A DNA stretch of 64,000 bases from contig NW_002476571.1 of the NCBI RefSeq assembly GCF_000189635.1, positions 553,957 to 617,956 of the forward strand, given 5' to 3'. Numbering within the stretch: the stretch's first letter is position 1; every line of letters starts with the position of its first letter. The stretch is from Tetrahymena thermophila SB210. Its lineage: Eukaryota > Ciliophora > Oligohymenophorea > Hymenostomatida > Tetrahymenidae. The notes under the pieces are model-generated. The model was not told the origin of the DNA. It did no database searches and saw only the letters and a list, made by a program, of their open reading frames with translations. A program made the translations under genes and the position numbers. Below are positions 13,544-47,057 of the stretch, piece by piece.

Positions 13544-13598
<55 letters not shown>

Positions 13599-13617
13599 TC
13601 TATCTATCTATCGATCG

Positions 13618-13682
<65 letters not shown>

Positions 13683-14390: not shown

Positions 14391-17300
14391 TCATTAAATT
14401 ATATGACTGAATAGCCCTTATATTGCGTTGCTTTCAATTTGTTGTAAAAATATATGAGAGACTGTTTTGAATGTTGGAATTAATATTTCAATTTAAATTT
14501 TCTTTACAAAATAGTTTTAAAACTCTTTTGAATTATATTGCAATTAATTTTTTTCTTGCAATTAGATCAAAATTTGCTGAATTAGAGTTAAAAATTCTTC
14601 TTTTTAAACTAAGTTTTAGTTGTTATTTAAAATAAAGTTTTTTATCTAAACTTTTTCAAGCATTTAAGGTTATAGAGACAGACTATTATTGACATCTAAT
14701 TTAAATTAAGTTATTGCTTACTTAAGACTATTCATAAATTATTAAATTATTCCTTCATCCTACTCTAATTAATTTTAAATCTTCTCATAATTTTTAATTT
14801 TATTCTATGTGTTAATAGTATAATTATTATTTTGTTATAATTTTTACATTTTTTATGCTTAATTTTGCAATAATTACTTAAGGTAATTTATTTCTTGTTT
14901 AATTTTATGAACTAAATAACTGCAAATAGTATCGCAAACTATGGTTTACATGTTTTAAATAGTCAAATTTATTACATTATTGAGAGGATCTTGCATTAAA
15001 TTATAAACTAATTCGAAAAACTAATTAGGAGAAAGAAGTAATTCGTAGTTGTCTTTAATAAAACTTTCAAGATTATCTATAATTTACTTTTTATGGTGTT
15101 ATATTAAATTCTACCTTAAATTTCTAACAATATCTCTTTCAAAGTGTTAAAAATTTAAATATTAAAATTGCTACTTGAATGCCTTGTAAATATTTTCTAT
15201 TTAATTCTTATTAATTAATTAGAATGCTTACGTTTATTCTAAAATTTTACTGCAATTTAGCTAAAACTTTGTTTGAAGCTAACTTATATTTAAGAATTTT
15301 TGATCTTAGGCCATTTGTTATGTGATATAGGCTATTTATTTGGAGTATTTGGCAACTTCTTTTGTTAGAGCATCTTTGAAAGATATTTAAATTATTAATT
15401 CTTTTTATATTTTATTTGCTGAATGATCACTGATTTATGTAAGCATGTGAACATAATCTTATATTTAAAATTTTCTGATATGGTAAATTATAACAATTGA
15501 TTCCTAGCTCATATATTCTTTTAAATTTAGTCCATCAATGAGCATCATTTTTTCTATCGCATTTGCTATTCCTTAAACTTAGTCGTTGTGTTCTTAGATA
15601 ACTTCAATATAATTATCATTTTAAAAGTAATTCTAATTATCATTCATTAATTTCATATTTTGTTTATTTAAATTATTTTGATTATCCTTTTAAATGATTG
15701 AATCTTACATTAAATATAAAGAATTAGAGAGCTAAAATATACTGCAAGCAAGGGGGATCAAAGATTTCCATTGCAATGGTTTTCTTTCAAACAAATTTAT
15801 GACGAAAGGCAGCTCTTCATTTAGATATTCTTTTATTATCTATTAAGTAATTTTATCATCTTAAAAAAATTCATCTATTCTGATAAAATTTAAATTTTCT
15901 TTCTTTGAAATATTTCTTTACAAAACTTTTATTTCACCTTTTAAATCCCTTATTTATTCTAAAATTTTTCCTCTTATTAGTTCCTCGTCTTTAATCCTCT
16001 TGAAACATCCACTCTCTGAAATATAAGATTCTAATTACTTTCTATCATATTTATTTATGTTAAATATCTTAGACTCTTGAGCTTGATTCATAAAATTTTT
16101 GCTCAATAAAATGCTTTATTCATATAACTCTTAATTATATTCTTGCTATACTAAGGATTAAGATTATAGTTATAGAATTTGTAGTGCTTAGTGTAAACTA
16201 TTTTTTTATTGAAGAATCATTTCGCATTTATCAAGCATTTAAAGAGAAATAGAATGTTATTTCAAAGAAGTAAATGCAATAGCTTTGATGTAGTGAGCTG
16301 CTAAATTTTTTGGATTTTTCAAGATAATTTCGTCTGATATTTGGAGTGCTTCTGTGAATTTTTTTTCAATTAGCAATTTCATTCCTTCGCTAATTAAATA
16401 AGAAGGATTAACGACATTTCTCTCGTTCACTCTTTTTTGAAAATCTTCTTTGAAAATCATATATTCTTTCATGGCTTTCTCTGGTTCTTTTCTCATATTT
16501 TAAATCTTACAATAAAAAGTTGCCCAAATTTCTTCCTCCTACTTCCTCAGATACTGCTTTTTTTTTAGTATTTCGCAAGTATTTAAAGTTTTGCAATAGT
16601 CCCAAAAGATTTCATCCATTTTAGAAATATCAATCATATTTTGCAGCTATTTCTCGCAAATCTAAGCGTCCACTTTGTCTCTTTCCTCAATTAAATTTGA
16701 TTAAATCTTATTTTTAATAATAAAACTGTCTTTTGAACCATCAATTACCATCTGAGCGCTACCATCTTACCCGCATCTACCTGCCCTGCCAAATGCTTAA
16801 TCTTCCACTCTTTTATTTTTTGGCGTAAATGTAACTATCACATGTAAGCCACCTAAAATTATTAAAAATAGTTATAAAAACCTTACACTTTTTGGATTGA
16901 TTTTTAATAAAATTTTAAAAATTAAATTAATTTTTTAAATAAAATGGATCATTTTAAATAAAAAAAAGAAAGAAACTAAAGAAATTAATTACCATTGTTT
17001 ATAATTTGAGTGGAAAGTTTTATATCAGTTCCTCTACCTGCCAAATTAGTACTTAAAATGATACAAAATTCATTAATTGATTCTTTTTCTATACTCTCAT
17101 TACCAGTGTAATATTCTACTATTTTTATATTTTGAAATCTCTTTGAAATTAATTTAGAAATGTGTTTGCTGAATTTTTCTGACTCTGAAATTATCAGGCA
17201 TGGACTTCCTTTATTCATTTAAAGTCCAATCTCATTAATAATTGTCTTTTGGAAATCTAGTGTTGTTTATTCAATAATAGGAGGCAATATTTATAACTTT

Positions 17301-19684
17301 CTAGGTTTGAAAGGGGGAACTTTCAGAGTATCAACCTAGTAAAACTATTACAGAACATCAATAGACTTAAATGAGCCTAATGTTCCAGTCAGTCCTACTA
17401 AATTAGTTTTATAGAGCAAAAACATGTATATATTAGAGACAAAGTTAACAGTCATATTCATAGGAGTCACAGTCACATTTTCTTTCATTTAAATAAATTG
17501 ATGCAAACCTCCTCTCCATTAAGTGTTTAATTGGGCAACACCTGTATTGTCGTAGTCAATAGGAATTATTTTATCATTTTCTACTTTATATTCTTTGTTT
17601 CTTTGAAGTTATTAAGCATAAAAGCCATTCATTACCCATTCCTTCATTTAAGACATTGCAAAAGATTTTATGTGATTAGGTATTAATTCATCGATTTTTG
17701 CAGAAATTTCTCCTCTCATTAGAGTTTAGTTGATAAATTCAGTAATAAAATCTTCAGCCCTGCAACAATATTTCTTGTCTTAGTTTTCTACAAAGTAGTA
17801 GTACCCTTCTAAATATTGATCTCTCATCTAAGTTATTTTATACCAAATTAGCCACAGAATAGTATTCAGCTTAGTTAATCCTGGAATACTTTTAGCAAGA
17901 GAGGTAGAATGGTTATGCTGATCAATGAGCATGCAGTCAACCTCATCAACAATAGCAAAATCGAACAGTCTACCACATCTAGTGCCTCTTTACTCATAAT
18001 AATCTCCAAGTAAATCGGCAGCATAACTTCCAACATCACCATATACCACATTTTTTTTGTAAGTCTCATTTGGTTCGCTGGAACGAAATTATTCAGAGCC
18101 AATAGATCCACATGTTAAACCTAGCTCTTTATAAAACATTTAAAACTCCTCGCAATCTCTCTTTGCAAGTTCTTTGTTTGAAGTGAAAACATCGACTTTA
18201 TCTTTCATCAAGCATCTCGTAGCAGCAATCATAGCAACAGTTATAGACTTACCTTCTCCAGTGTTAATCTGTAAGATTCTTCCTTTTTACTTTTATTTGT
18301 ATAAAAAAAGCAAGCAAGAAACTATCTAAACTGAGCGTGGTGTCATTTTTGAAACTTTTTCCAAAGCTTTGCTTGATTAAATTAAATAGTAAATTTCAGG
18401 ATATCTTTTTTTCAAGTCATCTAAAAATTATCCATTCATGCCATCTAGATATTTACCAAAAAGTTTCATGAAAATCTCTCTTTCATTCTCTGTAAGTTCT
18501 TTTATCTACTTTAAAATGGAATCAACTTCTTCACTGTAAAATTTTGGTTAATTCTAAATAGAAGTTTATCTATTTTCAATAAATTTAATTGGTTCTTATT
18601 AATTAAAATGTTTTATTTCACACTAATTTTTTAGATTTAAAGGCTAAGAATTTAATTTATTGCTATTAATTTAGATTTAATTAGAAAATTATTTTTTTAA
18701 TTAAATTTACTAATTTTTCTATTTATCTTAAATATTTAAAGAAAGTAATTTTTTTAATTAAACATTATTTTAATTAAAAATATTTTATTAAATTTAATTT
18801 AAATTTTCACAAACATTTATGTCTTTTTAAATTTTTGGTTATAATTTTGTTAAGTATTATTATTACTTCTACTTATTATCATTTTTTAAGTTACTATTTT
18901 GAGGATATTATTCAATATTGTTTTTTTCATATGGTTTTTTAAATTATGTTTCTTATTCATTTTAATTAGATGATTTCTATCTATTTAGAACGTTTAGATT
19001 TTAATTCTCATAAATATTCTAATTGGAAAGTCCTACTAACTTGTTTTCTTATTGAATTTTATTATTTTTAATAAAATCCTAAACTTTCAAATTTTTATTT
19101 TAGAAAGTGTTAGGACATGCGCTATTTTTTTATTATGGTGTCTAAGTATTATCGGTGGGTAGCTAAATTTTAATTTAATTGAGTTATTATGTGTAGGCGA
19201 ATAGTTTTTCTGTAAAAGACATTTTATTTAAGTCTTCTGATAATAGAGAAGAGATAACTACTAGTAAAGAGAGGGATTTATTGTTAAATGATGTCAAATA
19301 AGAATCAATTATGAGTTAAACAGATTCAAGCGTATCAGTAATTTACGTTTCCTACTGTTGAGTAATGATTTTATTTTGCGAAAAGACAGCTTGAGCTGCA
19401 GTTTATTTATTTTGATTATTATTAACACATCTTTCATATAGCTCTATAAAATATGGATTAAGATTTCTTGCTTTTATTGGGTCTAAAGCTATATTCCTTG
19501 ATATTTTAAGTGTATAATCTAAATCTTATAAATGTTTATTCCAATTACCTCTAAATGGGCATAATAAAGAAGATAAAACAAGTTGTGTTTTTCCAAAAAT
19601 TAGCTTGCCATTTTAAGAGTATTAGCTTAATATTTATTCAATTTACAAAAGAGTATCTTCTTAAATATTTAAATTAAAATCCAT
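14391..19684 (-). CDS. SecA-type motor ATPase with TPR-like segment and long helical tail (paralog 1)
   Basis: The frame is open from ATG at 19684 to TGA at 14393-14391. Removing one intron (16853-16992) leaves 1718 codons, i.e. 1717 aa. The first ~370 residues are Q/N-rich and low complexity. The SecA core starts near 18530. Walker A is LQINTGEGKS near 18270, then VVYGDVGSYAADLLGDYYEQ, Walker B FAIVDEVDCMLID near 17950, GLTGTLGS near 17370, NLAGRGTDIKL near 17020, and QAFGRAGRCGQDGSA near 16780. A TPR-like segment (EGMKLLIEKKFTEALQISDE..) follows at 16390-16260, then ~600 helical residues shared only with the paralog at 41659-47057. In bacteria SecA drives preproteins through SecYEG; here no signal or transit peptide and no membrane helix is seen, so the substrate is unknown. 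Family is secure; translocation is not shown. The start is chosen as the first ATG of the long frame. Confidence 0.85.
16853..16992 (-). other. Intron shared with the SecA-like paralog
   Basis: GT..AG, 140 nt, splitting the Gly codon of NNG|GLHVIVTF just after the SecA motif GRGTDIKL. The paralog has an intron at exactly this codon (44175-44236, 62 nt), so the intron predates the duplication. Confidence 0.9.
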
Positions 19685-20536
19685 CCTTCAAATTATTTCT
19701 TTATATTTTTAATTTATTTAACAATACTATTTTCAAATATTTATTATTAATCTTAATTCAATTTTTTTATTAAATGACTTAAAAAATTTTTATCTTTAAA
19801 GGAATCTAAAAATGTAATTATCAAAGCAAATAATACTTCTTAGATTTCTCCTTTGAAATTTTTAAAAATTTAGAATTAATTATTGCCAATTACTATCTAT
19901 TCTACATAAATTCTAATATGTTAACATTTCATTAGATGTCTTTTTTATTTACAAAACTAATATTTATTCATTTTTTCAAAGAATTTATTACTAAATATCA
20001 AAATTCAATTCCATTCTTCAAAATATTTCTTTATATATTTATTTATAAATATTACTTTCATATATTTGCTATTAATCATAACTCAATTTTTATTAAATAA
20101 CTTTAAAAATTTTTAAATAAAAAAAGCATCTAAAAATATAATTATTAAAACAAAAATCCTTCTTAGATTTCTCCTTAGCAATTATTAAAAATTTAGAATT
20201 AATTATTATCAATTACTATCTATCTATATAAATTCTACTATGAGTATTAACATTTTATTAGATGCCTTTTTACTTAATTAATACTCATTTTATTTCTCAA
20301 AGAATGTCTTATTAAATATTTAAATTCAAAATATTTCTTTATATATTTATTTATACATTTTTAATATTATTTTAAAATATTTACTATTAAATCCTTACTC
20401 AATTTTTATTAAATAATTTTAACTTCCTTTATTTTTAAAAGGCATCTAAAAATAAAATTATCAAAACAAAAAATCCTTTTTATGTTTCTTCTTTACAATT
20501 TTTAAAAATTTAGAATTAATTATTTTCAATTTCTAT

Positions 20537-20586
<50 letters not shown>

Positions 20587-20600
20587 CATAACATATATTT
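19640..20600. repeat. Three tandem ~320-bp units over the 5' end of SecA-like gene 1
   Basis: Three diverged direct copies start near 19640, 19963 and 20284. Each contains the same order of landmarks: a ttattcaattt-like block, tatttctttatatatttattt, actcaatttttattaaat, a gcatctaaaaat block, tttaaaaatttagaattaatta and cattagatg. The first unit contains the start codon (19684) and first codons of the gene; the others repeat that start-codon neighbourhood in decayed form. Confidence 0.75.
20537..20586. repeat. (TATC)n microsatellite
   Basis: About 12 TATC units inside the third tandem unit upstream of SecA-like gene 1; the second unit has only a few TATC copies at the matching place, so the tract expanded after the duplication. 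Confidence 0.95.
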
Positions 20601-21433
20601 CCAAATTTCATTAGATGTGTTTTTTTATATAATTTATATTTTATTAGCAAATATTTTCAAAATGTATTGAATGATAATAGTGCTGTATATTTTTTAATAT
20701 TTTAGATTTTGAGCAGTAAAATAAAACAAATGTTTATTTCATGTAAAAATTTTATTTAATTTTAAAAATATTTTAAATACCTAATAATTATTTGGTATTT
20801 AATTAAAGAATATCAATCTTACTATAAATTAGAACATTTTTTAATGAAAAATTATTTAGATTACTAAATACTAAATAAATAAATTGGCATGGTTTTTTTT
20901 TATAAAAATATTTTATAATTTTCATTTTTTACAGCTTTTGTAAGTTGAAATCAATATTTTTTGAAATTATTTTATTGATTATTTTTTTGACATTTTTTCA
21001 AATTAGATAGAATGATTTAAATTATATTTTGGAAATTTTTGTAAATGATATAAAAAATTCATATTTTAATATCTCTCTAATTAATTAAAATATAAATATT
21101 TGAATATATAGTTTGTTTGCTAAATTCATTTAAATACATTTTTTTTTTATTTCCATTTAAAAGAAACTCTACAAAAACCAATATGTATTAATTTCACACA
21201 AAATAAATATTATAATGAGGTCAAGAGGATCAAAAAATAATAATTTATTAGTTCTACATATCAAAAACTTAGGTAGCTAAATTAAATTTTTATTTTTTAC
21301 TTAAATATGATATTTCAATTTGATTAAATTTAGATGACTGGATAAACCAAAACTTTTATATTTATTAAAAACAAAATTTTGTTTGATTGATTTATTTGTT
21401 TGTTTGTTTGTTTGTTTGTTTTTAAATTAAAGA
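20601..21433. other. Intergenic, between divergent genes
   Basis: AT-rich spacer upstream of both the SecA-like gene (-) and the Piwi gene (+). It must contain both promoters, but no defined element can be named. A (TTTG)n tract lies at about 21395-21421, directly before the Piwi start. A short open stretch from ATG 21214 could be an upstream exon, but I found no in-frame join to the Piwi frame. Confidence 0.6.
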
Positions 21434-23839
21434 ATGAATTTAGTTCTTTCAAAGAGACCACAAAAGAGTTCTAGCTAAGAATTATAAAAGATATGCAAGG
21501 TCTCTCATGTTTTGACAAATATTTTTAATTTAAAAATCCAAGAATAGGTTTAATCTTAAATTGAAAAAAAGGAAGATAAAAATGATTAGTCTCATATAAC
21601 TTGCTTTTAATATGATGTAGAATTTCAACCTGAAGTATCTGAAGACGACAGATAGCTAAGATATGCAATATTTAAGAAAGCAAGGAAAGATATAGAAAGA
21701 TTAATAGGCAAATTTAGCTTTTCTGGAAAATCTTTTTACTCTCTGATAAAACCAATAAAAGAAAAAATGTATAAAGAATATTTGAATTTTGACAGTATTA
21801 AAATAGGTGAATAATCATATTCTATGAGAATTAAGTTTGTGAAGTAAATAGAAGTTTAGAATGATGAAACCGTAGATTAATTTTCTAATAACTAAATTAA
21901 CTAAATTCTAAATATCACTTTCAAAGATATTTTGAGAGAAGAAAATTTTATTGAAATTGGCAAAAACTCTAAATTCTATAAGGAAAATGATATTAAGGAG
22001 AGATAGATCACTTTAAAAAATGGTTATGATATTTAATTTCAAATTTATAAAGGTATAACATTTTAGATATATCAAACCCTTGAGAAATACTAAATAACTC
22101 TAGATTTTACAAGTAGAATAATGAGAAAAGATAATGCACTGAAATACTTAAAAGAATTCAAAAATGGAATTATCGGCTAATCTGTAATTACTGCGTATAA
22201 CAATTATTAAAGATATCAAATAACAGATTTAGATAGAACTAAAACTCCATAGAGTTAATTTTTATGGAATCAAACAAATAATTAAATTTCGTTTTTAGAT
22301 TATTACTACTACAAATACAGGATCAAAATTGAACATATTAACCAACCTCTTTTAGTTTCATTTACAAAAAAGAGAGATCCTATTACTAAGCAATATCAGA
22401 AAAAAATTATTTATTTAGTCCCAGAGCTATGCCTGATGGCTGGGTTAAGCTCAAATGAAAAAAGAAGCATCAACTAAATCACTCGTGGAATTTAACTCAA
22501 TCCAAAGGAAAGATATGAATATACAATAGAAGAATCTTAATTACTTCGCAAATAATCATCTCATTAAGAAGTCTATATAGATAGTATTCCAATATAAGCT
22601 AAAGCCTACATTTTAAATCCTCCTAATATCATACTAAAAAATAGTAAAATAATTCCTGAATAGGGAAAATTTGATTTTAAGGGCTAAATATTTGAATGCA
22701 AAACTGATTTTACAGATTGGATAATCATTTACTCAAACAAAAATTAGACCCTAGTAAACAAACTTTTAAAATTATTTCAAAATATCACTTAAAAACTGGA
22801 AATAAAGTATGAAGATCCTAAAATAATTCATCATTCTTTAGTGAATCCTAAACATTTAATAGAAAAATTAGATAAATATTTTATTGAAACTGAGTATTTG
22901 CCTAGTTTTATTGTAACATTTGGAGACTTAAATACAAATTTCTATTAGTAAATCAAACATTTCTTTTGTATTTTAGCTAATGTTGAATCTTAACATATTA
23001 GTCCTTAATCTTTAAAAAATAAAAATAAATATAAAATTTGCCTTAATATCGTCCTATAAATATTATAAAAGACTGGCAACCAAATTTGGAATGTGGAAAT
23101 GCCTATGTAAATCACATCGTAGACAATAAATACTATGATTGTTGGAATAGAAACTAGCCGAAATATAATCAAAGGAAAATAAATTATTGCCGTTGTTTGC
23201 TCTATCAACAGAAACTTCTCAAGATATCTATCTTAAGTTTACTTTAGAGAAAAAGGTTGCAAATAGCTTCATTAATTGTAGAAAATTATAAAAGATGGAA
23301 TACTAATTTACTAATAAATAGTAAAAAAATTACCAAAACAAATAATAATTTACAAATAAGGTTAAGGTGATGACCTAAAACAAAACAGTCATTTAACTGA
23401 AATAGAATCTATTTAAAATATTGCAAGCAATATTAGTCCTACTTATTCTCCTAAATTTGCTTATTTTAATGTTAACAAAAATGTTACATAAAAGATTTAT
23501 CAATAAAATGAAGACAAAGCAATTTCCAATCCTATTCCAGGAACAGTATTTTCACACGAAACAAGTAAATCTTAAATTCATTTCTATCTAATAGCTTAAA
23601 ATTGTAGGAATGGTGTTAGCATTCCAACAAAATACAGCCTTTTATACAACTCAACTGATTTGAATTAAGAAACTTTTTGGTAGTTTACATACTATTAAAC
23701 TTTCAACTACTACAATTAATAAGGTTCCATAAGAGTACCCGCAGCCTTGAAATACGCCGAGAAACTAGCAAAATATGTTTTTGATTATCTCTAAGATGAC
23801 AACTTTGGTGATTTAAAAAAAAATTTATTTTATCTATGA
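21434..23839 (+). CDS. Piwi-clade Argonaute (TWI-like), slicer-deficient, intronless
   Basis: A single open frame of 802 codons (801 aa) from ATG 21434 to TGA 23837-23839, full Piwi length apart from a short N-terminus. It starts MNLVLSKRPQ, followed by the N-domain TNIFNL. The PAZ domain (about residues 235-350) shows YQITDLDRTKTP, ISFLDYYYYKY and IIYLVPELCLMAGLS. The MID domain follows, then PIWI with TMIVGIETSRN, IIIYKQGQGDD, NPIPGTVFSHETSKS, VSIPTKYSLLYNSTDL and IRVPAALKYAEKLAKYV, ending NLFYL as Piwi proteins do. The catalytic positions are altered: GID to GIE, YRDG to YKQG, and PTHY to PTKY, so RNA cleavage is unlikely while guide binding may remain. In Tetrahymena, TWI proteins bind scan RNAs or other small RNAs; which class this one binds cannot be read. 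A 3' neighbour LRR gene is convergent. Confidence 0.93.
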
Positions 23840-24619
23840 ACACATAAATAAATAAAATGAAAAAAAAGTAACTTAATTTAATTCATTTTTCTAGTTTATT
23901 TTTGTATAATTACGAATTTTTTATTAAGGTATATAAATTATATGTTAAGTTGTAAAATTAATATCAAATTAATATTTTTAAAATCTGTTTATCAAAAATA
24001 AATAAAATTTTTTAAATCATTCAAAATATTATTAAAGTATTATTACAACTGACTACTTAGTTCATATACTTTTATGTAGTTTGTTTATTTTTGAAAAATT
24101 ATGGAATTTTTGTTCAACATCTAAAGTTAAAATTTAAGTATCACTAATAAATAGTATTTAAATATTACTTTTATTTGAACTTACTCATATATAAAAAATC
24201 ATATAGAATAATTGTAAATATTTATAAAAATATTAATTAGATCACTAAAATTCCAATAAACTAAATTATAAAATTTTTAAAGCAAAAATAATTTTGTAAA
24301 TTATAAAAATAAAAGTGTTTCAATAAACTTAATTTTTAAAAAAAGCTAATAAGAATAAAGTTTCTAAAGGACAAAAATTTTTGAAAATTTCATTATTACA
24401 AAAAATATAACTTAACAAAAAATAATTTTCTTTTTAGAAATTATTAAAGTAAATAGATTTGAATAGCAGATATATTTTATCGCATGGGCATGATTCAACT
24501 AATTTTGCTTAATTAAATTTAAAATCTTTCAAATATTTATTGGTTGAAAAGAAATTATTAACATAAGATTAATAATTCGCTATTTATATTTATTAATTTT
24601 ATTCCATCTATTTGCTCAT
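23840..24619. other. Intergenic, between convergent Piwi and LRR genes
   Basis: AT-rich. From about 24180 onward it belongs to the first unit of the large tandem duplication and has a diverged counterpart at about 29140-29570. No gene seen. Confidence 0.6.
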
Positions 24620-27600
24620 TCAGTCATCCATTTCTTCTCCACTATCGTCAGAAACCTCACCAAAGTCATCGTACAAGTTTAGTTCGAATTATGTTAATTG
24701 TTTTATCCTCATAATTTTTCTCTTTAATAGCTCTTCTTAGTCATCTATATTATTCTCGCTTTAAATTATGATAGTAAAATAAAAAGTAAGAAACAAACTA
24801 AAAATTATATTTTCTAAAAGATAAAGAAATATATTTTTTATAATATTGCATTTACCCAAACCCTAAATACAATATTCTCAGATTTTGACAGTTTGCCAAA
24901 GTAGAAATAACTTCAGATGGGCCAAAATATCCAATTTTACTAAACCTTTATGAAAATAATAATAAAAATATATTTAAAAATAATTAGTTTCAAGCAAAAA
25001 TGGTTTAAATTTTTTTTTGGAGATTAATAAAATTAGATATTTAAATAAATAAATACTATTTTAGAGATAAAATAGTTCTATAAAAAATAAAGCTTTGCTT
25101 GAATTAAATTAATATTTCTTGAAAGATTACCTGAGATCAAATTTCAAATACTAAAGATTAGTTAAATTTGTTAAACTTTTGCTTAAGCTTAAAGCACCTT
25201 CATAATTTATTTTATTATACCTTATTTTAAAATTTAAATTGTTTTAATAAAAGAGTAATTCAAGAAAAGTCATTTAAAATACTTTCCAAAACCAAAAAAG
25301 TTTGGTTTTGTAGTATTATTCATTAAAGTAAATAATATAAATAAATACTATAGCTCTAGTATTAGAGTAGAAAAGTTGATACACTATTTTAGTTTTTCAC
25401 CTAAGAAGTAAGCTCCAAGAGAGCCAATTCTATTGTACCTTTATAAATTAATTTATTAGTTATTAATAAGACTAAAATTATGTAAATAAAAAAAATAAAT
25501 TTGTTATTTATAAAATTTCCTCATTGTAAATAGTTTTCAATATTTTTTTAAAAAACCATTAATTATTTCTTACCACAAATCAAGTTGTAAGTATTTGAGA
25601 TTAACAAATTAAGGTAATTTAGAACTAAAGTTAGCTATTCCTTTATCTTTAATGTTGTTCGATCTTTTTTATTTATGAAATAAATAATATCTTGAGCAAA
25701 TATATTTACTTGTGATGTATTTTTTACAAACAAAATAAAATTTTACTTAAGCAAAAGAGACAAATCTGATAGTTCTGGTAACTTCATCAAAGCATTTGCT
25801 AATTCACTTATGCCATCATCACCGATTTTATTATTGCTATTAAAAAAATAGTGATAAATTATTTTACATAATATATCATTCATTATTTAATGCTTAAACA
25901 TCTTTGAGGAATTAGATTTTTAAATAAATAAGAAAAAATGTATAAATAAAAAGATTATGTATGCTTCTTTACTCTATTTAGAGTTTTAATTTTTATAGAT
26001 TTTAACATTTTGCTAAGCCTTATGCTAAATTAGCTGTACCCTCTGCACCAATTTCATTACCTCTTAAATAGAAAGAATGAAATAATAAATAGTTTTTTTA
26101 AAAAAAATTATGAATGAGATGAAGATAATTAATGAATAAAACCTAAACAAATTAAGCAACTTTATTTTTTTTTCTTAAAAATGGGTTAAAAGAGAAAAAT
26201 TATTTTACCGAATTATTAATTCTAAATTTTAGAGGTTTTGACATTAAGATAAAGCTGCTCCGAACTAAGAGGCATGCTACCCATCTAAGCTATTGTGACT
26301 AATATAAATATAAAAATAATAATTAAAAATAAGGAAGTAATTATTGATTTTTTAATATATTTCAATATTGAAATTATTATTATTATATTAGTTAATTATG
26401 AGTCTATTTTGAAGCTATTAAAGTTATTGAAGAAATATGGTATGTACTAGCTTATTCCTAAGATAATATTTAAAGAATTGAATAATTTTTAAATACCTAA
26501 AATCAAGAAAAAGAGTAGAAACACTTTTAAAGCTAGGAAAGATAAAGATATTAGAAGAATAACCCAAGAGCCTTTTTTAATTTAATTGTAATCAAATAGA
26601 TGAAATTTAAAATTTAGATCTTTGAAAGCCAATTAGATAGACTTTAAAATAATAAAAGGTTGAGTTTACCCATTTCCTTCGATACGATTAGAGCTTATAA
26701 TATTTTTAATTTAAAGATTAAGTAAAACAAGAATTTGGCATATTATAAATTTATATACCATAGATATAATCTTAATTTTTTCAGATTCGAGCAATTATCT
26801 AAGGCAGAGCATATATTAGATTAAGCTTTTCCATCTAATTGATTAGACCTTTTTGTGGTAATAATAAAATAATTATTGACTTTTTATGAATTTTAAAATG
26901 ATCACTAAATATTATGGTTATTAAAATTAAATTTTATATTTAAATTCTGTTTGCTTTCTCATAAATATTTTTAAGAGAAACTTATTCTTTAGAATCTAAA
27001 ATTAGAAAATAGTTAGTTATCTATCTATCTATTTACCCTAATTTGAGAGTCAATTCTGAGAGTTTAGCACATTTTGAAATTCCCAAAGCTAAATTATAAG
27101 CAAAATTAGAACCATTTATACTTAAATCATTGAAATTATTTCTACTTGTTAATAATAATAAATAATAATTTCTAAAGAAAAAAATTTGAAAAAATTGATA
27201 ACTAACATATAGGATTATTTTTTTTTTAAATTAAAGATTAAAAATTAAAACTTAAAATATAAATTAATCAAATAAATTACTCAAGATCAATAGCTAGAAT
27301 TGATAAATTATGACATTAAGCTAATTACGATCCTAAAATTGATATTTTCTATTCTTCTATTTTACAGTAACTTTTTATAATATATAAAGCAAATTAAAAA
27401 TAATAATGAAATATAATCAAGCAAATTTAAAAAAAAGCCCCCAACTTTTAGAGAGTAATTAATGATTTTTTTAAATCTAATAAAATTTTTAATTTAATAA
27501 TTTATAGTTGAGTGTAAGGGGTAATTAAAACTAAAGTGTTTATTGTATTCCTCATATTTTTTTTATTTTAAAATAGATTTAATGCTTTTTATAAATTTTA

Positions 27601-29100
27601 GTTAGTAAAATTTAGCTAAATCAGAATTACGAGAGATCAAGGTTCAAATTTGAGAGATTTGGTAAATTTACTAAGCCCTAGCTTAAAGCTTCAATATGTT
27701 CACTCATGTTGATACCTCTTTTGATGAATTTGTTAAAAATTTAAGTTAAAAATAAAGAAGAAACAAATAAAAAAATGATGAGTAATAAATGTTTTGATTT
27801 AAAAAATAAATAACAAACAATATCTCATAAATAAAAGTTCTTTATTTGTCATTACATCTATGTGAACAAAAAGCAAAAAAGAAAGTTAAATTTACCCTAA
27901 TTTTATTGATAAAGTAGAGAGTTTGGTGCATTTTTTTAAATTTGATATTAAAATAGTTAGAAACTCAATATCGGAAGGACAACTATCACTTTTAAAAATA
28001 AAAATTAGCAGATAAAACAGTTTAGATAAAAAATTTGATAAAAATTATAAAACAAACTAGTATTACTAATCAGGCTCGATAATTAGTGTTTTTAAATATG
28101 GTAAATTTGAAAAAGTTTCAATAATATTAGACTCTATTATAGGATCTGTTGGTTTCTTACTATTTAGCATATAAAAATAGTAAAGGTTTAATTAATTAAT
28201 TAAAAATCAAAATAAAAAAAAGAAAATTTTATAAAATTTTTATTTTAAGATGAGAAAAATAAATAAGTAAATAGTTTAATATTTCATTTTTTTTCATTTC
28301 TTTAATTTATAGATAGTAAATATATTATTTTAAGCTTTTTAAAGAAATATAAAATTATAAACATTGAAAATTGGCTTCTAAATATTAATAGTAAAATATT
28401 TAATTACAAATAATTCACTTCAAGTATAGACTCATCAGAAAATCTTTAACCACTAAACTTTTATTGAAATATAATTAAAGGATTTGATTTTTCAATAAAA
28501 TTTGTTTTACTTCTTCTAGAGATTTGTATTAACCCTTTATAAATATCATATTTTTTTTAATTATCCTTTTTTTTTTCAAATTTAATTAATTTTTTTGTTT
28601 GTAATAATTATTTGTTATTAAAAAAACACTCACAGATTTATAACAATAATTTCGTTTTAAATAATCAAAATTTGATGATCCACAATATTCCCGCTATTAG
28701 AAATTTAATCAGAATTAAAAATTTTATCTTTATCTATATCATTAATCAAAGCATTATCAAGATCAAATAAGCATTTATCCATTAAGCAAGATATTTTTGA
28801 CAAGCGCAAAATAAAATTCAAACACCAACTCTTAAATAGGCGCATTTTTATTATTTATTGCTTTTTATAAATATATAATAATTTTTATTATTAAAACATA
28901 TATATATATATATACTGTAAATGCTCATTAATTAAGGCATTTTTTTTTTCGATTATGGCATGTTTTTTAATAAAAATTTGTTAAAAAAGTTTTTAAAAAA
29001 GTCTGAAAATGTAGCCCTCCAAGTAAAATACTCGGAAGGCGAAAAAATAGTAAAGTAGAAAGGTTTTTTCTACCTACTGATCTAAAAATGCTCCTATTGT
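24180..29100. repeat. Large tandem duplication, unit A
   Basis: Direct repeat with unit B (about 29140-33845), offset by about 4.94-4.95 kb: the LRR stop at 24620 matches 29573, and the start region at 28845 matches 33785. Similarity is high in exons and introns alike, with many small indels. The limits are approximate because the ends fade into AT-rich spacer. Confidence 0.85.
24620..28845 (-). CDS. Leucine-rich-repeat protein, multi-exon (tandem copy A)
   Basis: Minus-strand exons encode ribonuclease-inhibitor-like LRRs. Examples are GNEIGAEGTANLAQGLAK near 26030, NKIGDDGISELANALMKL near 25800, FGAALSQCQNLQNLEL near 26250, LALGISKCAKLSELTLKL near 27080 and LSLSKSLTNLTNLQYLKF near 25170. 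Each is followed by an AT-rich intron, giving about one repeat per exon. The C-terminus is an acidic tail (LYDDFGEVSDDSGEEMDD, stop 24622-24620). The proposed start is ATG 28845 (MRLFKSWCLN); a second ATG (MDKCLFDLDN) follows 21 codons later. LRR proteins bind other proteins; no catalytic domain or membrane segment is seen. The full exon chain is not resolved, so length is uncertain. Confidence 0.7.
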
Positions 29101-29572
29101 AAATTCTCTGTATTTAAATAGTTCTTTTATTTGAGCACAGTCTGATATAAAAAACCATAAAGAATAATTGTATAATATTTATACAAATATTTTATCAATT
29201 AAAAATTTCATAATCTATTATTAATTTTTAAACAAAAATAATCAATAAAATAATTTTGTAAGTTTTAAAATAAAAATAATTCAATTAATTAAATTTTTTT
29301 AAAAAGTTAATAAGAAAAAAGTTTCTAAAGGACAAAAATTTTTGAATATATCACTATTGCAAAAAAATATAGATATCACAATTATAAACAATTTTCTTTT
29401 TTAGAAATTATTAAAGAAAATAGATTTGAATAGCAGATAAATATAATCTCATGGGCGGGATTCAACTAATTTTCAAATAATTATTGGATGAAAAGAAAAT
29501 ATTAACTTAAGATTAACAATTTTCTATTTTATTTATTGATTTTATTCCATCTATTTACTCATTCAGTCATCC
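28846..29572. other. Spacer between the two LRR copies
   Basis: Contains a (TA)n tract near 28899-28917, a comparatively GC-richer patch at about 29005-29085 absent from the matching place beyond unit B, and the 3' flank of the second LRR gene. A short perfect inverted repeat (gtagaaa..tttctac, 29055-29073) lies in the GC-richer patch. No gene recognised. Confidence 0.5.
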
Positions 29573-32500: not shown

Positions 32501-33845
32501 AAATTTTAATTTAATAATTTATAGTTGAGTGTAAGGGGTAATTAAAACTAAAGAGTTTATTGTATTCCTCATATTTTTTTTATTTTAGAATAGATTTAAT
32601 GCTTTTTATAAATTTTAGTTAGTAAAATTGAGGTAAATCTGAATTACGAGAGATCAAGGTTCAAATTTGAGAGATTTGGTAAATTTATTAAGCCCTGGCT
32701 TAAAGCTTCAATATGTTCACTCATGCTGATACCTCTTTTGATGAATATGTTAAAAATTTAAGTTAAAAATAAAGAAGAAACAAATAAAAAAATGATGAAT
32801 AATAAATGTTTTGTTTAAAAAATAAATAACAAACAATATCTCATAAATAAAAGTTCTTTATTTGTCATAACATCTATGTGAACAAAAAGCACTAAAGAAA
32901 GTTAAATTTACCTAACTATTATTGATAAAGTAGAGAGCTTGGTGCATTTTTTTAAATTTGATACTAAAATAGTAAGAAACTCTATATCGGAGGCACAACT
33001 ATTACTTTTAAAAATAAAAATTAGCAGATAAAAAGCTTAGATAAAAAAATGAGTTAAAAATTATAAAACAAACTAGTATTACAACCCTTGCTCGATAATT
33101 AGTGTTTTTAAATTTGGTAAATTTGAAAAAGTTTCAATAATATTAGACTCTATTATAGGATCTGATGGTTTCTTACTATTTAGCATATAAAAATAGTAAA
33201 GATTTAATTAATTAATTAAAAATCAAAATAAAAAAAAAGAAAATTTTATAAATTTTTTATTTTATAATGAGAAAAATAAATAAATAAATCGTTTAATATT
33301 TCATTTGTATCATTTCTTTAATTTATAGAAAGTAAATCTTTTATTTTAAGCTTTTTAAAGAAATATAAAATTATAAACATTGAAATTTGGCTTCTAAACA
33401 TTAATACTAAAATAGTTAATTACAAAGATCTCAAATCGAGTATAGACTCATCAGACAATCTTTAATCACTAAACTTTTATTGAAATATAATTAAAGGATT
33501 TGATTTTTCAATAAAATTACTTTTTCTAGAGATTCGTATTAACCCTTTATAAATATCATATTTTTTTTAATTATCCTTTTTTTTCAAATTTAATTAATTT
33601 ATTTGTTTGTAATAATTATTTGTTATTAAAAAAAACACTCACAAATTTATAACAATAATTTCACTTTAAATAATCAAAATTTGATAGCCCAAAATATTCC
33701 CGCTATTAGAAATTTAATCAGAATTAAAAGATATTTTTGACAAGCACAAAATAAAATTCGAACATCAACTCTTAAATAGGCACATTTTTATAATTTATTG
33801 CTTTTATAATATATAATATTTATCATTATTAAAACATATATATAT
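29140..33845. repeat. Large tandem duplication, unit B
   Basis: Second copy of the ~4.9-kb unit, same orientation as unit A. It ends at an AT-dinucleotide tract (about 33835-33846) immediately followed by a short Piwi-like relic. Confidence 0.85.
29573..33785 (-). CDS. Leucine-rich-repeat protein, tandem copy B, 5' coding end disrupted
   Basis: Same exon series as copy A, with LRR exons and the same acidic C-terminus (stop 29575-29573), including NKIGDDGISELANALIKL near 30780 and GNEIGAEGTANLAQGLAK near 31015. At the 5' end the copies differ in two ways. 69 bases (23 codons) present in copy A are missing, near 33730. The tryptophan codon of copy A's MRLFKSWC is TGA here (33767-33765). Copy B therefore has no start equivalent to copy A. 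Either it begins elsewhere or it is becoming a pseudogene, while the remaining exons still look intact. Confidence 0.55.
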
Positions 33846-33846
33846 A

Positions 33847-33915
33847 TTCTATGATAATTAAGTTTATAAAGTAATTAGAAGTTTAAAATGATGAAATTGA
33901 AGAATAATTTTTTAG
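33847..33915 (+). pseudogene. Short relic of the Piwi gene
   Basis: About 66-70 bases match the Piwi CDS at 21820-21890 with roughly 10 mismatches by eye. The same frame reads SM.IKF.KQ.EVQNDE in both. Nothing else of the gene is recognisable on either side. It lies directly at the outer edge of LRR unit B, in the same orientation as the full Piwi gene. Confidence 0.75.
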
Positions 33916-34251
33916 CAAAAAATATTTTCAAATAAAATACATAAAAATTATTCTTTTGTATTTATAAATATATATTTTAATCAATCCAAATTCAATATCA
34001 ATTTTGAAATAAAATGTATCCATCAATATGTATATATTATTGGCTTGTAAAATTTATAAAATTTTATATTAAGTAAGTGATTAAATAATTTATTAAATTG
34101 AATAATATTTAGTATTTTTTTAATAGTATTTAGATTTTCATTAAGAAAAAAAAGTATTTAATTTATACTATTTCTTCAGGATTCATTTAAATAATTAATT
34201 TGTTTTTATTTTTTAATTAATAAAATTGAAGCAGTCTAAGAAATTATTAAG

Positions 34252-41047: not shown

Positions 41048-41658
41048 AGAGATTACTTTAAATATGTATCACATTTTAACATTTTTTATAAAAAATTATT
41101 AAGTTTTTTATAATTAAATTAATAAGAACTATCGTGGTCTTTAGAATGAAATATTAATACATAAACTTAGTAAGTTACTAAGTTAGTTTTTCATGCAAAA
41201 TCTTTTTTTATATTATTTAAATAAATATTTATAATTTTTGTTTAAGTAGTGTTTTTGTGGGTACCAAATAACTAATAAAAAAATGTTAAAACTTTTAATG
41301 TTTTTTAAGTCTTAAAATAATTTAGAAAAAAATATAATAAATATTTATTTAATAAAATAAATTAAATTTATTTTCTTTTATTCAAAATCCTCAGCTACTT
41401 CTTATTTAGAATTGTAAATATATTTACAAAAATATTATTTCAAACTTACTTTTATTGGTGTTTGCATTAAATAATAAGTAAAATTTAAACAGTAATAAAA
41501 TTTAGAAGAAAAAAAAAGTAATTTAAATTTATAAATTGATGCAAAATTCATTTAAATTGTATACACATATAAAAATATTAATAGTAAATATATGCAACAA
41601 TTGTTAATTTATTTATTTATAAAATATAAATATTTATTATGTTAATTAATTAATTAAT
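41048..41658. other. Intergenic, between convergent genes
   Basis: AT-rich 3' flanks of the plus-strand LRR gene and the minus-strand SecA-like gene 2. Nothing recognisable. Confidence 0.6.
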
Positions 41659-44600
41659 TCATTGTATTATATGTTTAAATAAGCCATAAATTGCATTTGA
41701 TTCTATTTATTGCTAAAATACATGAGATACTATCTTAAAGGCTGGGCTGAGAAGTTTTATTTGTATTTTTTTAAATATTTATTATTGGAATTCGTTTGAG
41801 TTGAATTAATTGGAATTTATATTATTATTTTCAAACAATTTTATTGCAGCTTGAGAAATTACATCTAAGAACTCTTCATATTGTGTTATTTTTTGATTGT
41901 TTTTAAGGATTAAATATTTTATTTCTCCTTTTAATTATGTCTCAGAGAAATTTATTAGACTATTGTTATTTTTATCAAGTATTTTTAAGTTTTGAATGGC
42001 TTGATTGATAGCTTTAGGATATTATTATAATAATTCTTTGTCTTCTTTTAAAAAGGCATAGAATTTTTGATGGTTTTTCAGTTTATTCTCTAAATGAGAG
42101 TATTATTTTTGCTATACTAATCCTTGAACCTTTGGAGCAGATAGTATCAGATCTCTGATTTAAGTTTTTACAGATTTTATCATGGCTTTTAACGAACATA
42201 GAACATGTTAACGGATAGTTTCAACGACTACATTTTCTATGCCATCTATTGTGCTATTTACAGAATTATATATAGGCTATTAAACTAAATTTGAAACAAC
42301 TTCTGTAAAGGCATTAGAAGAAAATTGTAATTCATAGTTGTCCTTAATGAAGTTTTCAAGGTTTTCTATAATTGATTTTTTGTGATTCTTACAAATATTT
42401 TTTGACAAACTGCTGACTATTTCTTTTTAAAATTAAGAAAAACTTAAGTAGAAAAAGCTTTTTTTGAATGCTCTGTATATGCTTTCTATTTACTAAGTAG
42501 AAACAAATTATATAACTTGATTCTACTCCAATATTTTTTTGCAATTTTCTTAAAATTTATATGAAAGCAAACGGAGATTTTAGAATGTCTAATCTTATGC
42601 CATCTGCTAGGTGATAAAAGTAATTTCTGGTGAGTATTTTATGACCTCTTTTGTTAGGGCATTCTTAAGACTTATTTAAATCATAAGTTCGTTTTGTACT
42701 CTGTCAGCTGAAGACTCACTGATTTGAGTTAGCATGTGTATATAATCGTTAATTTAGAATTTTCTGATATTTTCAATTAAAAGAAGCGATTTTTTGCTTA
42801 AATAGTCTTTTAAATTCAATCCTTCAACATCAGCTATTTTTTTAACAGCACTAGCTATTCCTTGGACTTATCTATCTTGTTCTTCAATCATAAGAGGATA
42901 TTTAAGATCAACCTCAAAGTCTACAGGAGTGCACAAATCCAATCCTGAAGGAGTTTAGCTAGCAGCTGAGGTGCGAGTTGAAGGTGTATTAGAGTTAGAA
43001 TTTCCATCTTACAAAATTTGTTGAGCTTGTAACAGATAAAGTGAGTTAGCTAGTTAGAAAATACCACATGCAAGAGGAATTAGAGATTTCCACTTTAAAG
43101 GTTTGCGATCAAAGAGCTCAATAATAAATGGGATTTCCTCATTTTAATGCTCTTTAAGCATTTGTTCAGTAATTTAGTCATCTTAGAAATATTCGTTGAC
43201 TTGGATGAATTATAAGCTTTCTTTTTTAGAAGGATTTCTATAGAGTTCCTTAATTTCTGTTTTCAATTCTCTGATTTAATCCTAAATTTTACCTCTGATC
43301 ACTTCTTCATCTTTGATTCTCTTAAAGCATCCACTCTCAGTGATGTAAGATTCGAGCTGCTTCCTGTCATATTTATTCTAATTAAATATTTTTGACTCTT
43401 GCAATTAATTCTAAAAATGTTTGCTTAAAACAAGACTTTATTCAAGCAATTCTTAGTTATATTCTTGCTACACTAAAGATTAAGATTATAATTGTATTAT
43501 TTACAGTGCTTAGTGCAAATCATTCTTTTAAGCTAGAATTTCTTCACATTTATCGAGCATCTGAAGAGATTTAGCATGCTTTTTCAAAGAAAGCAAAGCA
43601 ATAGCTTTAATGTAGTGAGCAGCTAAGTTATTTGGATTTTTCTAGATGACTTCATCTGATATTTAGAGTGACTCAGCAAATTTGTTATCCATAAGTAACT
43701 TCATTCCTTCGTTAATTAAATAAGAAGGATTGACTATATTTTTCTCATTAACTCTTTTTTAAAACTCTTCTTTGAAAATTGCATATTCTTTCCTGACTTT
43801 CTCTGGCTCCTTTCTCATGAACTAAATCTTGCAATAAAATGTTGCCCAAATCTCTTCTTCTTACTTCCTCATATATTACTTATTTTTAATAGCTTCACAA
43901 GTGTTAAGAGTCTTGCAGTAGTCCCAAAAAATTTCATCCATTTTAGAAATATCTTTCATATTTTAAAGTTATCTCTCGCAAATCTAAGCATCTACTTTGT
44001 CTCTTTCCTCTATTAAGTTTGACTAAATTTTATTTTTTATGATAAAGCTATCTTTTGAACCATCGATCACCATTTGAGCACTGCCGTCTTATCCACATCT
44101 GCCAGCTCTACCGAATGCCTAGTCTTCTACTCTCTTATTCTTAGGTGTGAACGTTACTATTACATGCAATCCACCTAAAATTTATTAATAAATAAAAATA
44201 TATTGTTTATATGTAAAATCTTATCTAATTGATTACCATTATTAATAATATTTGGAGAAAGCTTTATATCAGTTCCTCTGCCTGCTAAGTTAGTGCTTAT
44301 TATTATGCAAAAGTCATTTACTTATTCTTTTTCTATGCTTTCATCACCGCTGTAGTATTCTATGATTTTTATGTTTGAGAATTTCTTAGAAATCAATTTC
44401 GAAAGGTATTTGCCGAATTTTTCTGATTCAGATATAATCAAGCAAGGTCTTCCTTATTGCATTTTTTGACCAATTTCGTTAATCATAGTCTTTTGGAAAT
44501 CCAAAGTTGTTTTTTCAATCAAGGGTGGGAATATTTATAATTTTCTAGGCTTGAAAGGAGGTACTTTCAAAGCATCTATTGTGTAGAATTACTCTAAAAC

Positions 44601-47057
44601 ATTTATTGATTAAAAGGTGCCTAATGTTCCAGTTAATCCAACTAAGTTGCTTTTATAGAGTAAAAACATGTATATGTTAGAAACAAAATTGACAGTCATG
44701 TTCATTGGAGTTACAGTCACATTTTCCTTCATTTAAATGAATTAATGTAAACCTCCTCTCCATTAAGTGTTTTGCTAAGCTATACCTGTGTTGTCATAGT
44801 CAATAGGAATAATTTTATCGTTTTCTACTTTATACTCTTTGTTTCTTTAAAGTTACAAAGCATGGAAACCATTGCTAATCCATTCTTTCATTTGGGACAT
44901 TGCAAATGACTTCATATGACTAGGTATTTGCTTATCAATCTCGGCAGACACTTCACCACTCATAAGAACTTAGTTGATAAATTCAGTAATAAAATCTTCA
45001 GCTCTGCAACAGTATTTCTTTTCCTTATTTTCTACAAAGTAGTAATATCCATCTAGATATTGATCTCTCATCTAAGTAATTTTGTACCAAATAAGCCACA
45101 AAATAGTATTCAGCTTAGACAACCCTGGAATACTCTTAGCAAGAGAAGTGGAATGATTATGTTGATCAATAAACATACAATCGACTTCATCAACAATAGC
45201 AAAGTCAAACATTCTGCCACATCTAGTACCTCTTTGCTCATAATAATCACCTAATAAATCAGCTGCGTAGCTACCAACATCACCATAGACTATATCTTTT
45301 TTGTAAGTTTCATTTGGTTCACTCGAACGAACTTCTTCTTAGCCAATTGAGCCACATGTTAAACCGAGCTCTTCATAGAATTCCTAGAATTCTTCACAAT
45401 CTCTCTTGGCAAGCTCTTTGTTTGATGTGTAGACATCAACTTTATCTTTCATTAAACTTCTGGTGGCTGCCATCAAAGCAACTGTAATCGACTTGCCTTC
45501 TCCAGTATTAATCTGTAAGATTCTTCCTTTTTGTTTTTGCTTGTATAAAAACATCAAACAAGAAATGATCTAAACCGAACGTGGTTTAATTTTTCTAACT
45601 TTTTCTAAACCCTTGCATGATTTGATCAAATAATAAATCTCAGGATACCTCTTTTTTAAATCATCCAAAAACTAGCCGTTCATACCTGCATCATATTTGC
45701 CAAATAGTTTCATGAATAGATCTCTTTCGTATTGAGTGAGTTCATTAATCTGCTTTAAGATAGAATCAACTTCTTCGCTGTAAAACTTTGGCTAAGTAGA
45801 TTGATTAGTAGGCTTTATCTCAATTTTTTATTAATTAGATTAATCTTATTAAATTTTTTGTTTTTTATCTTGCTTTGGTGGATAATGTAAATCTTATTGA
45901 TTTGTTTATGGTTAAAAATTGTTCTATTCAGATATGCATTTCTTTAATTAATTTGGAGTGTTTGGCTGTTATTCCTAGTTGCTTTCTGATTGAATTCTTT
46001 TAATTTATTATTGGATAGGAGAAACATCTCTTTCCTTCTTTTAATTTAAAATTTTATGAATCTGAGGTTGAATATCTATGCATTACTATTAAGGTTGTTG
46101 GTATTAGACTTTCTAAATATTTATTATCTAATACTTTTTATCATTCTATTTTAATTAGTTAATTTTATCATTTTACTCATTTTTTGATAAATAATTTTGT
46201 TTTTGATTCTTATTTTACTCATAAGGTTTTTCGAATTACCTTTCTCTGCTATGGATATCTTATCTTTATTGTTGATTTACATTTCTTCTTTCATTTTCTT
46301 TATCTTATTGGTAATGTCTGAAGGCATCTAAATCGTAATGAGTTACTATGTCGTTTTCTGTTTTAATTCTAGTGGGGTACAACTGCTTTTGCTCTTTTCT
46401 GATCACATTCTTCCCAGTTTTTGGTTAAAGATACTCATTTAAGTATATTATATCGAATTTAGTCATAGCTTTAAATTTATTATAGGGAGTGTCTTTATTC
46501 TAGCCTTATTTTTCTACTTCAAAAATGCTTTAAGAAACCTAATCCATGAGACTTAAAATACTTTGACACTCTACCTTATCGCACATCCAATAAGACTGCA
46601 AGAAGACATCATAATGTATCTACTTTTGATTGAATCTTTTGCAGTTTAATTAAATCAATTGCATTATTTAATGATAAATTTATTTTTTTTTCTCTTTATT
46701 TTTTTATTAGAGAGGAAACTGTAGTTCATTACTCGAATTGAGTAGTTCCTTGATTTTATTGACAGCCACGAGGATGTGCATTCTTTACTATTTAACCATA
46801 AAGTAAAGCTCAAAAAGGAGATCAACCATGTAAATACCCAGCCCCTTTTCCGTATATTTTGCTACAATTTAGTCTTTAAATTAACAAATATTATTAATCA
46901 ATTCCTTGATTAAATGTACATTTGTAAAGTTGTATTTATCAAGCATCATAGCGATTAAGCAGCTATCAGTTTTACCGATACCTTCCTGAGCAGCTTTACT
47001 TATTATTTTTTCTACATCAGCATATGGCTCAGCCAAATAATTTCTCTCTATATCCAT
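41659..47057 (-). CDS. SecA-type motor ATPase with TPR-like segment and long helical tail (paralog 2)
   Basis: The frame is open from ATG 47057 to TGA 41661-41659. Removing the single intron (44175-44236) leaves 1779 codons, i.e. 1778 aa. The N-terminal ~430 residues (MDIERNYLAEPYADVEKIIS..) do not resemble paralog 1. The shared part starts at PKFYSEEVDSILKQI (about 45790). It includes Walker A LQINTGEGKS (about 45510), Walker B FAIVDEVDCMFID (about 45195), GLTGTLGT (about 44630), NLAGRGTDIKL (about 44270) and GRAGRCGQDGSA (about 44105). The TPR-like EGMKLLMDNKFAESLQISDE follows near 43690. The tail stays alignable to the very end (ESNAIYGLFKHIIQ here, ESNAIQGLFSHIIQ in paralog 1). Both NTP-binding halves and the arginine-finger region are kept, so ATPase activity is likely. 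No targeting peptide or membrane span is visible. Substrate unknown. Confidence 0.85.
44175..44236 (-). other. Intron at the conserved SecA-like position
   Basis: GT..AG, 62 nt, at NNG|GLHVIVTF; same codon and phase as the 140-nt intron of paralog 1. Confidence 0.9.

Follow-up and report, generated by a model that had tools for sequence, protein, structure and literature searches.

Two intron-bearing SecA-like genes of the ciliate Tetrahymena thermophila are members of a family shared with intracellular bacteria

Introduction

SecA is usually seen as the export motor of bacteria and plastids; why, then, should its ATPase core be found, apparently under selection and followed by a different tail, in the nucleus of a eukaryote that has no plastid? 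The question is raised by a stretch of 64,000 nucleotides of Tetrahymena thermophila SB210 (contig NW_002476571.1, positions 553,957 to 617,956 of the forward strand), here called the window, which is part of contig C9 of the genome assembly that we searched (101 Mb, 445 contigs). It carries two genes, A and B, which an earlier reading of the letters alone (the original prediction) described as eukaryotic SecA-type ATPases with an unknown tail. By a modest balance of probability we consider A and B to be older, intron-bearing ciliate members of a SecA-like family exchanged between eukaryotes and intracellular bacteria of the Rickettsiales, Amoebophilaceae/Cardinium and Parachlamydiales, and they would encode a polypeptide motor that works without SecYEG.

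Results

A and B are real genes on the minus strand, and each is interrupted by one intron that lies, by sequence and frame, at the identical codon position in both. TAA and TAG stand for glutamine in the genes of this genome; contig C4 of the same assembly has CCCCAA repeats on both ends. The genes, their N-terminal regions and their motor cores have the following window coordinates.

47057-41659, minus: gene B, 1778 amino acids, 1 intron
44237..47057, minus: gene B exon 1, N-terminal region and motor through AGRGTDIKL...NNG; open frame (genetic code table 6), GT..AG intron next
44175..44236, minus: gene B intron, 62 nt, GT-AG, phase 1, directly before GGLHVIVTF (from sequence and frame)
41659..44174, minus: gene B exon 2, motif VI, scaffold-like helices, probable TPR, hydrophobic remnant, C-terminal tail, stop TGA
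45786..47057, minus: gene B N-terminal region, 424 amino acids, Q/N-rich in part
43999..45785, minus: gene B SecA-type ATPase core, split by the intron; Pfam SecA_DEAD 3.4e-37, P-loop_SecA, motif positions
19684-14391, minus: gene A, 1717 amino acids, 1 intron
16993..19684, minus: gene A exon 1
16853..16992, minus: gene A intron, 140 nt, GT-AG, codon position as in gene B
14391..16852, minus: gene A exon 2
18542..19684, minus: gene A N-terminal region, 381 amino acids, Q/N-rich in part, with weak likeness to that of gene B
16677..18541, minus: gene A SecA-type ATPase core, split by the intron; Pfam SecA_DEAD 9.2e-36, P-loop_SecA, and SecA_PP_bind below cut-off (0.0034)

Both genes encode a complete SecA-type ATPase core. 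Every motif quoted in the original prediction (TGEGKS, DEVDCM, TGTLG, AGRGTDIKL, GRAGRCGQDG) is present, as are Walker A, DEVD, motif V and motif VI of the SecA DEAD/P-loop core, and exon 1 of gene B matches solved SecA chains at 1.1e-35. The two motors are 86% identical, and because the number of nonsynonymous substitutions per site (dN 0.071) contrasts with that of synonymous ones (dS 1.73), though the latter is near saturation, the core is, judging from these rates, conserved under purifying selection. It differs from an ordinary export SecA: exon 1 of gene B scores 189.2 bits (E 1.1e-55) with the canonical SecA equivalog TIGR00963 and does not reach the curated cut-off of 800, and exon 2, scored separately, gives at most 23.7 bits with the SecA equivalog models. 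This scoring, with TIGR00963 and related NCBIfam models, covers gene B exon by exon, and the cut-off is a whole-protein score. Neither SecA_SW nor SEC-C is among the Pfam matches to A or B up to E 0.1. Together with the tree position given below, these results support the earlier idea of a SecA-derived eukaryotic motor.

Matches to PF07517 are found at 14 places in the genome, two of which are halves of one gene. At least five genes belong to the family: A, B, one on contig C391 (loci L112, L009 and L010; G000:C391:16189-29307), one on contig C129 (L115 and L011; G000:C129:232841-243487) and one on contig C112 (L013). The last is an otherwise open SecA-like gene (open reading frames 4390-5658 and 400-4386 of G000:C112) that is broken up by either a single in-frame TGA or an intron absent from the model. 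Another SecA-like group, more divergent (L015-L022), occupies contigs C116 (three places), C15, C31 (two), C212 and C112; in its member L018 a vWA match below cut-off follows the motor. The scan for vWA covered L018, and the label 'vWA' on three tree rows denotes motor similarity only.

The phylogeny of the motor against bacterial SecA, which had been suggested as a check, sets A and B in a family clade apart from ordinary SecA. Our first tree had 50 rows (42 bacterial or virome and 8 ciliate; fragments, near-duplicates and most ordinary SecA were left out), and in it the family formed a 24-row clade (support 99/100) separate from the ordinary SecA rows, 11 in number. One ciliate group (100/98) joined A and B with L013. 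The C391 and C129 genes shared an 11-row group (99/94) with two virome rows, four of Rickettsiaceae, one of Parachlamydiales and two others from metagenome-assembled genomes (MAGs). Forcing the five ciliate genes into one clade was rejected (log-likelihood lower by 46.7, p-AU 0.0017); by these trees there are at least two ciliate lineages inside the family. A second tree of 44 rows added two Megaera proteins (see below) and one Bandiella protein and dropped nine rows, namely six giant gammaproteobacterial or proteobacterial proteins, one vWA-type ciliate row and two ordinary SecA.

A single, non-exhaustive pattern scan of GTDB species genomes gave 76 related loci (169 pattern matches). With the motor profile 20 of them scored above 300 bits (305-584) and the other 56 between 41 and 250, one of the low scorers (L044) being a member-like gene split across two frames. 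Nine of the high scorers are Rickettsiales-type (two from one genome; we take Arcanobacter to belong here), four are Amoebophilaceae/Cardinium, one is Parachlamydiales and six are MAG contigs (three from one MAG). Rickettsiales, Amoebophilaceae/Cardinium and Parachlamydiales live inside cells. Close relatives are also found on two virome contigs (L099 and L100), and the frames of many relatives span 2,200-4,150 residues, some ending with the contig.

The best plasmid match to the C391 motor comes from a Rickettsiales symbiont, Candidatus Megaera polyxenophila, obtained from a Euplotes woodruffi (ciliate) culture: the motor of the C391 gene and one encoded on its plasmid CP113870.1 are 91.6% identical over 771 residues. 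Among 129 plasmid records that match the C391 motor (L009), 3 cover at least 80% of it; Megaera is the best, and Legionella geestiana (28%) and Bandiella (33%, 72% covered) are second and third of the matches listed. For exon 1 of gene B, the best 8 of 104 matching plasmid records are the short Megaera protein (34%), Bandiella (30.5%) and six at 27-28% that are annotated secA or unannotated, and no close bacterial plasmid source for A and B is among these 8. Phage records matching the C391 motor number 21, all below 60% identity and none covering 80% of the motor; 3 of the 20 listed are annotated, as SecA. The two Megaera plasmid genes lie side by side (L110:347-20815).

L110:347-16024 (CP113870.1): Megaera long, Megpolyxen_01749, 5225 amino acids
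CP113870.1: Megaera short, Megpolyxen_01748, 1589 amino acids

The C391 frame has 4,373 codons with 96 TAA/TAG and no TGA, and the C129 open frame 3,549 codons; the long Megaera gene has no in-frame TAA or TAG. At the DNA level C391 and Megaera agree at 87.8% of 11,011 aligned positions and at 74.4% of another 1,654, and over 4,356 aligned codons the proteins are 78.8% identical (dS 0.388, dN 0.124), with 37 TAA/TAG codons of C391 opposite CAA or CAG in Megaera. The C129 gene is 71.6% identical to the long Megaera gene over 3,506 codons (dS 0.490), and the dS between C391 and C129 (0.638) is larger than that of either ciliate copy to Megaera. In the second tree Megaera joins C391 (98/90) within a group that includes C129 (100/100), and its branch measures 0.0044 compared with 0.066 and 0.095 for the ciliate copies. 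TAA/TAG make up 0.34 (C391) and 0.39 (C129) of the glutamine codons in the stretches first read and 0.63-0.88 in nine other frames of the genome, including A, B and two L013 pieces, a small comparison to which expression level could also contribute. At 118 sites with glutamine in both ciliate copies, TAA/TAG stands in both at 9, in only one at 22 and 19, and in neither at 68; the 9 shared sites, with 7.4 expected, come near to independent change in C391 and C129. Open frames near the C391 gene, at a distance of 7-17 kb to one side and of about 4 kb to the other, make free use of TAA/TAG; they are frames of unproven gene status. No counterpart of the last 750 residues of the long Megaera protein, its protease-like piece included, turned up when stretches of C391 and C129 were searched.

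An exchange between domains, apparently recent, links the ciliate C391 gene with a Rickettsiales plasmid. Because of tree position, branch lengths and glutamine codons, the comparison favours movement from the bacterium to the ciliate, perhaps in two events; alternatives would be a single transfer with an early duplication of the gene, or a return of the gene to the bacterium. Codon use and the assembly point to a probable nuclear residence of the C391 and C129 genes.

Behind the motor, A and B carry the following parts.

43462..44010, minus: scaffold-like helices and probable TPR unit behind the gene B motor
42991..43125, minus: gene B remnant of the family hydrophobic segment (RKPLKWKSLIPLACGIFQLANSLYLL); from alignment with bacterial members and hhalign
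15669..15803, minus: gene A remnant of the same segment (RKPLQWKSLIPLACSIFQLSNSLYLM); from alignment with bacterial members and hhalign
41662..42855, minus: gene B C-terminal helical tail, ~400 residues, no homologue detected outside A/B

The tail region of A and B matches bacterial family sets in hhalign with E 3.9e-6 over 202 columns, ending at the hydrophobic remnant, and by this comparison the post-motor region is homologous to that of the bacterial members. Probably the order of scaffold-like helices, TPR unit and first half of the hydrophobic segment is also that of giant SecA-like proteins of intracellular bacteria. In the profile comparison the second half of the segment and the family tail that follows were not found in A and B. 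A search of the own genome with exon 2 of gene B returned A, B and three pieces (on C129, C112 and C391), all inside residues 30-323 of the 869 of the query, and no further place besides A and B for the C-terminal ~400 residues. The AlphaFold2 model of the gene B tail has a mean predicted local distance difference test (pLDDT) score of 49; it is low past about residue 145 except near 600-660, and the C-terminal ~400 residues are mostly below 60. The proposal of an unknown, conserved effector tail of ~600 residues is half borne out: the first part of the tail, recognisable as probable scaffold-like helices, TPR and hydrophobic half, seems to derive from the family, and just the final ~400 residues are without match and, within the sequences searched, confined to A and B. 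For the hydrophobic segment, no Latrotoxin-like or other named domain was listed when three members were scanned with Pfam (up to E 0.5). A C-terminal 'L-x-S-P' likeness of gene B to several family tails is a pattern only and found no support in profile comparison.

At the other end of the proteins, the N-termini are acidic and unlike a targeting sequence, in agreement with the earlier remark that no organelle targeting signal is visible. The accompanying claim of unrelated, swappable N-terminal modules found no support, because weak similarity between A and B remains there.

In long relatives, Pfam gave HEAT repeats below cut-off (Megaera long) and a RickCE-like catalytic piece, likewise below cut-off (L100, 0.0024; Megaera long, 1.2e-4). 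The two exons of gene B and two relatives were also compared with PADLOC and PHROGs. PADLOC gave nothing on either exon and, on the relatives, no more than DpdF (E 3.7e-4) and Cas3g (E 0.0014); the motors matched phrog_32805, a PHROGs family of unknown function, and the short Megaera protein a DNA helicase family (E 8.7e-8).

Elsewhere in the window, a frame with Piwi (3.6e-49) and PAZ (1.6e-22) of the Argonaute type adjoins gene A between the two SecA genes (21338-23839, plus strand). Also between them lies a direct duplication (about 24584-33527; spacing ~5 kb, blocks 80-96% identical). A tandem duplication at 57573-60189 (spacing ~1.66 kb) overlaps a protein-kinase frame (58883-60313, Pkinase 7.6e-34), and short-period repeats (8-12 nt) flank gene A on both sides (13514-13749 and 20467-20658).

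Discussion

As older ciliate members of the family, A and B would use their core as an ATP-driven polypeptide-handling motor (unfoldase or translocase) that grips and moves polypeptide without SecYEG. Action in the ciliate cytoplasm would be expected because no full Sec C-domain is recognisable. The probable TPR unit would dock the motor to a partner. In the long members the full hydrophobic segment would insert into or lie on a membrane, and in A and B, where its first half is left, the lineage-specific C-tail would have taken over as the likeliest docking device. The long bacterial members, with HEAT-like repeats, the hydrophobic segment and a weak CE-protease-like piece, could be host-directed effectors; the ciliate genes keep the motor, and no protease-like part was found in them. 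We infer this biochemical role from sequence.

Several observations weigh against this explanation. The dS between A and B, near 2, is saturated. The preprotein crosslinking domain SecA_PP_bind (PF01043) reaches 18.4 bits in A, under its cut-off of 23.5, and is unlisted in B. The hhalign probability of the A/B tail is only about 87% with the bacterial sets, 2.7% with the ciliate long tails and 0.4% with L013, and the last ~400-430 residues find no match in four family tail sets (probability 0.1-0.2). One member, L041, ends shortly after the motor and has no hydrophobic peak there. Support is lower in the second tree (family node 94/93; A/B/L013 93/83), and the trees were built without insect, Daphnia, amoebozoan and plastid SecA sequences. 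Part of the A/B tail may also be a diverged ordinary SecA C-domain, because the full-length SecA model PRK09200 reaches weakly into it (exon-2 residues 31-289 of gene B, to profile position 767 of 789; 21.2 bits, E 6.6e-5) and the model of a bacterial member likewise aligns to SecA beyond the second nucleotide-binding domain (NBD2). On whether the tail is simply that C-domain the evidence is divided: no Pfam C-domain family is found, and PRK09200 does extend into gene B.

The strongest rival, which we regard as doubtful yet deserving of serious weight, is a conflict or immune-type machine: a large STAND-like ATPase sensor with superstructure-forming repeats (HEAT-like, TPR-like) on either side of the motor and a membrane-active segment that a ligand triggers to insert, serving host and bacteria as weapon and counter-weapon. 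The architecture of the long members would fit it, as would the many members in host-associated bacteria, the several copies in the ciliate, the weak protease-like pieces in two members and the SecA domains listed in the eukaryotic association module of phage WO in PMC5062602. A and B, however, have no HEAT-like part and keep just the first half of the hydrophobic segment, and the PADLOC results, empty on gene B and weak on two relatives, do not favour it either. We put forward only tentatively, as possible rather than probable, the history that goes with such a machine, in which a giant SecA-derived ATPase is traded between the parties: a Megaera-like plasmid gene of more than 4,000 codons would recently have reached the ciliate nucleus, perhaps twice, losing its protease-like end and gaining ciliate glutamine codons with its frame kept open, and A and B would be an older acquisition in which a new tail took the place of the membrane part.

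An organelle-targeted SecA in a mitochondrial or plastid-derived preprotein pathway would agree with the intact core and the weak extension of the full-length SecA model into the tail, but ciliates have no plastid, the N-terminus is acidic, Pfam shows no SecA_SW or SEC-C, and the motor falls outside the ordinary SecA rows of a tree that holds no plastid SecA; we find this very unlikely. Hardly better is a nucleic-acid translocase, a superfamily 2 (SF2) ATPase with helicase-like fold acting on RNA or DNA: SecA chains fill rows 1-20 of the matches listed, and the relatives L009, L013 and Megaera long have above-cut-off matches to the crosslinking domain, which is typical of peptide handling. Decay into functionless remnants of a transferred gene might be expected in an exchange-prone family, with L013 and its in-frame TGA or unmodelled intron as an example, yet the A and B frames are open over more than 1,700 codons, have a common intron and show low dN/dS, which leaves this possibility the faintest of all.

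The family connects a ciliate with types of bacteria that inhabit ciliate cells, by a gene flow that can be dated (11 kb at 88% DNA identity). It also opens two questions to work in a laboratory ciliate: the role of a SecA motor in a eukaryotic cell without the Sec channel, and the direction in which large symbiont genes travel.

How do A and B compare with what is known? The family is not new, because Duplouy et al. 2013 (PMC3639933) described long secA genes with matches in Tetrahymena thermophila; A and B are members with a variant tail, and what is new is the genomic setting. In the literature searched (mostly without subscription papers), nothing was found on these ciliate genes beyond that mention, or on transfer from Megaera to a ciliate nucleus or the reverse.

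Canonical SecA has in common with A and B the ATPase core and a weak full-length model match into the gene B tail, and with a bacterial family member a fold that aligns up to the helices behind NBD2; it differs in that exon 1 of gene B lies far below the equivalog cut-off and that in A and B the motor is followed by the probable TPR and hydrophobic parts. The Megaera plasmid proteins have a SecA-type motor as well, and the short one has about the length of A and B, with a motor 35% identical to theirs. Identity to A and B is only 29-35%, however, and these group separately with L013; the long protein, unlike the ciliate stretches, ends in the weak RickCE-like piece. SecA-like (helicase-related) domains among Amoebophilus effectors (PMC3482391) are comparable as predicted host-directed proteins of the Amoebophilaceae, to which several members here belong, a likeness drawn from a brief mention without anatomy. 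A SecA DEAD-like protein of Legionella fallonii is given under horizontally transferred eukaryotic proteins (PMC4256840), and a Daphnia transcript has a SecA DEAD-like domain (PMC5037449).

The nearest precedent is the 'eukaryotic' secA clade of Duplouy et al., apart from bacterial secA, with matches in insects, Daphnia, Polysphondylium, Salpingoeca and Tetrahymena thermophila and with Amoebophilus relatives. There as here, long secA-domain proteins are common to eukaryotes and endosymbionts; we link A and B to that clade by the text of the paper and the Amoebophilaceae relatives rather than by sequence comparison. Section 9 of that paper gives no tail anatomy and proposes transfer from eukaryote to bacterium, whereas we describe the post-motor parts, find the ciliate genes at two points of the tree, at one of them next to a gene from a Rickettsiales plasmid, and see for the C391 and C129 genes a comparison that favours the direction opposite to that proposed for the Wolbachia members. 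Those members, wBol1_1091 and wBol1_1092 of Wolbachia wBol1-b, are two long secA genes numbered consecutively, like the adjoining long and short genes of the Megaera plasmid.

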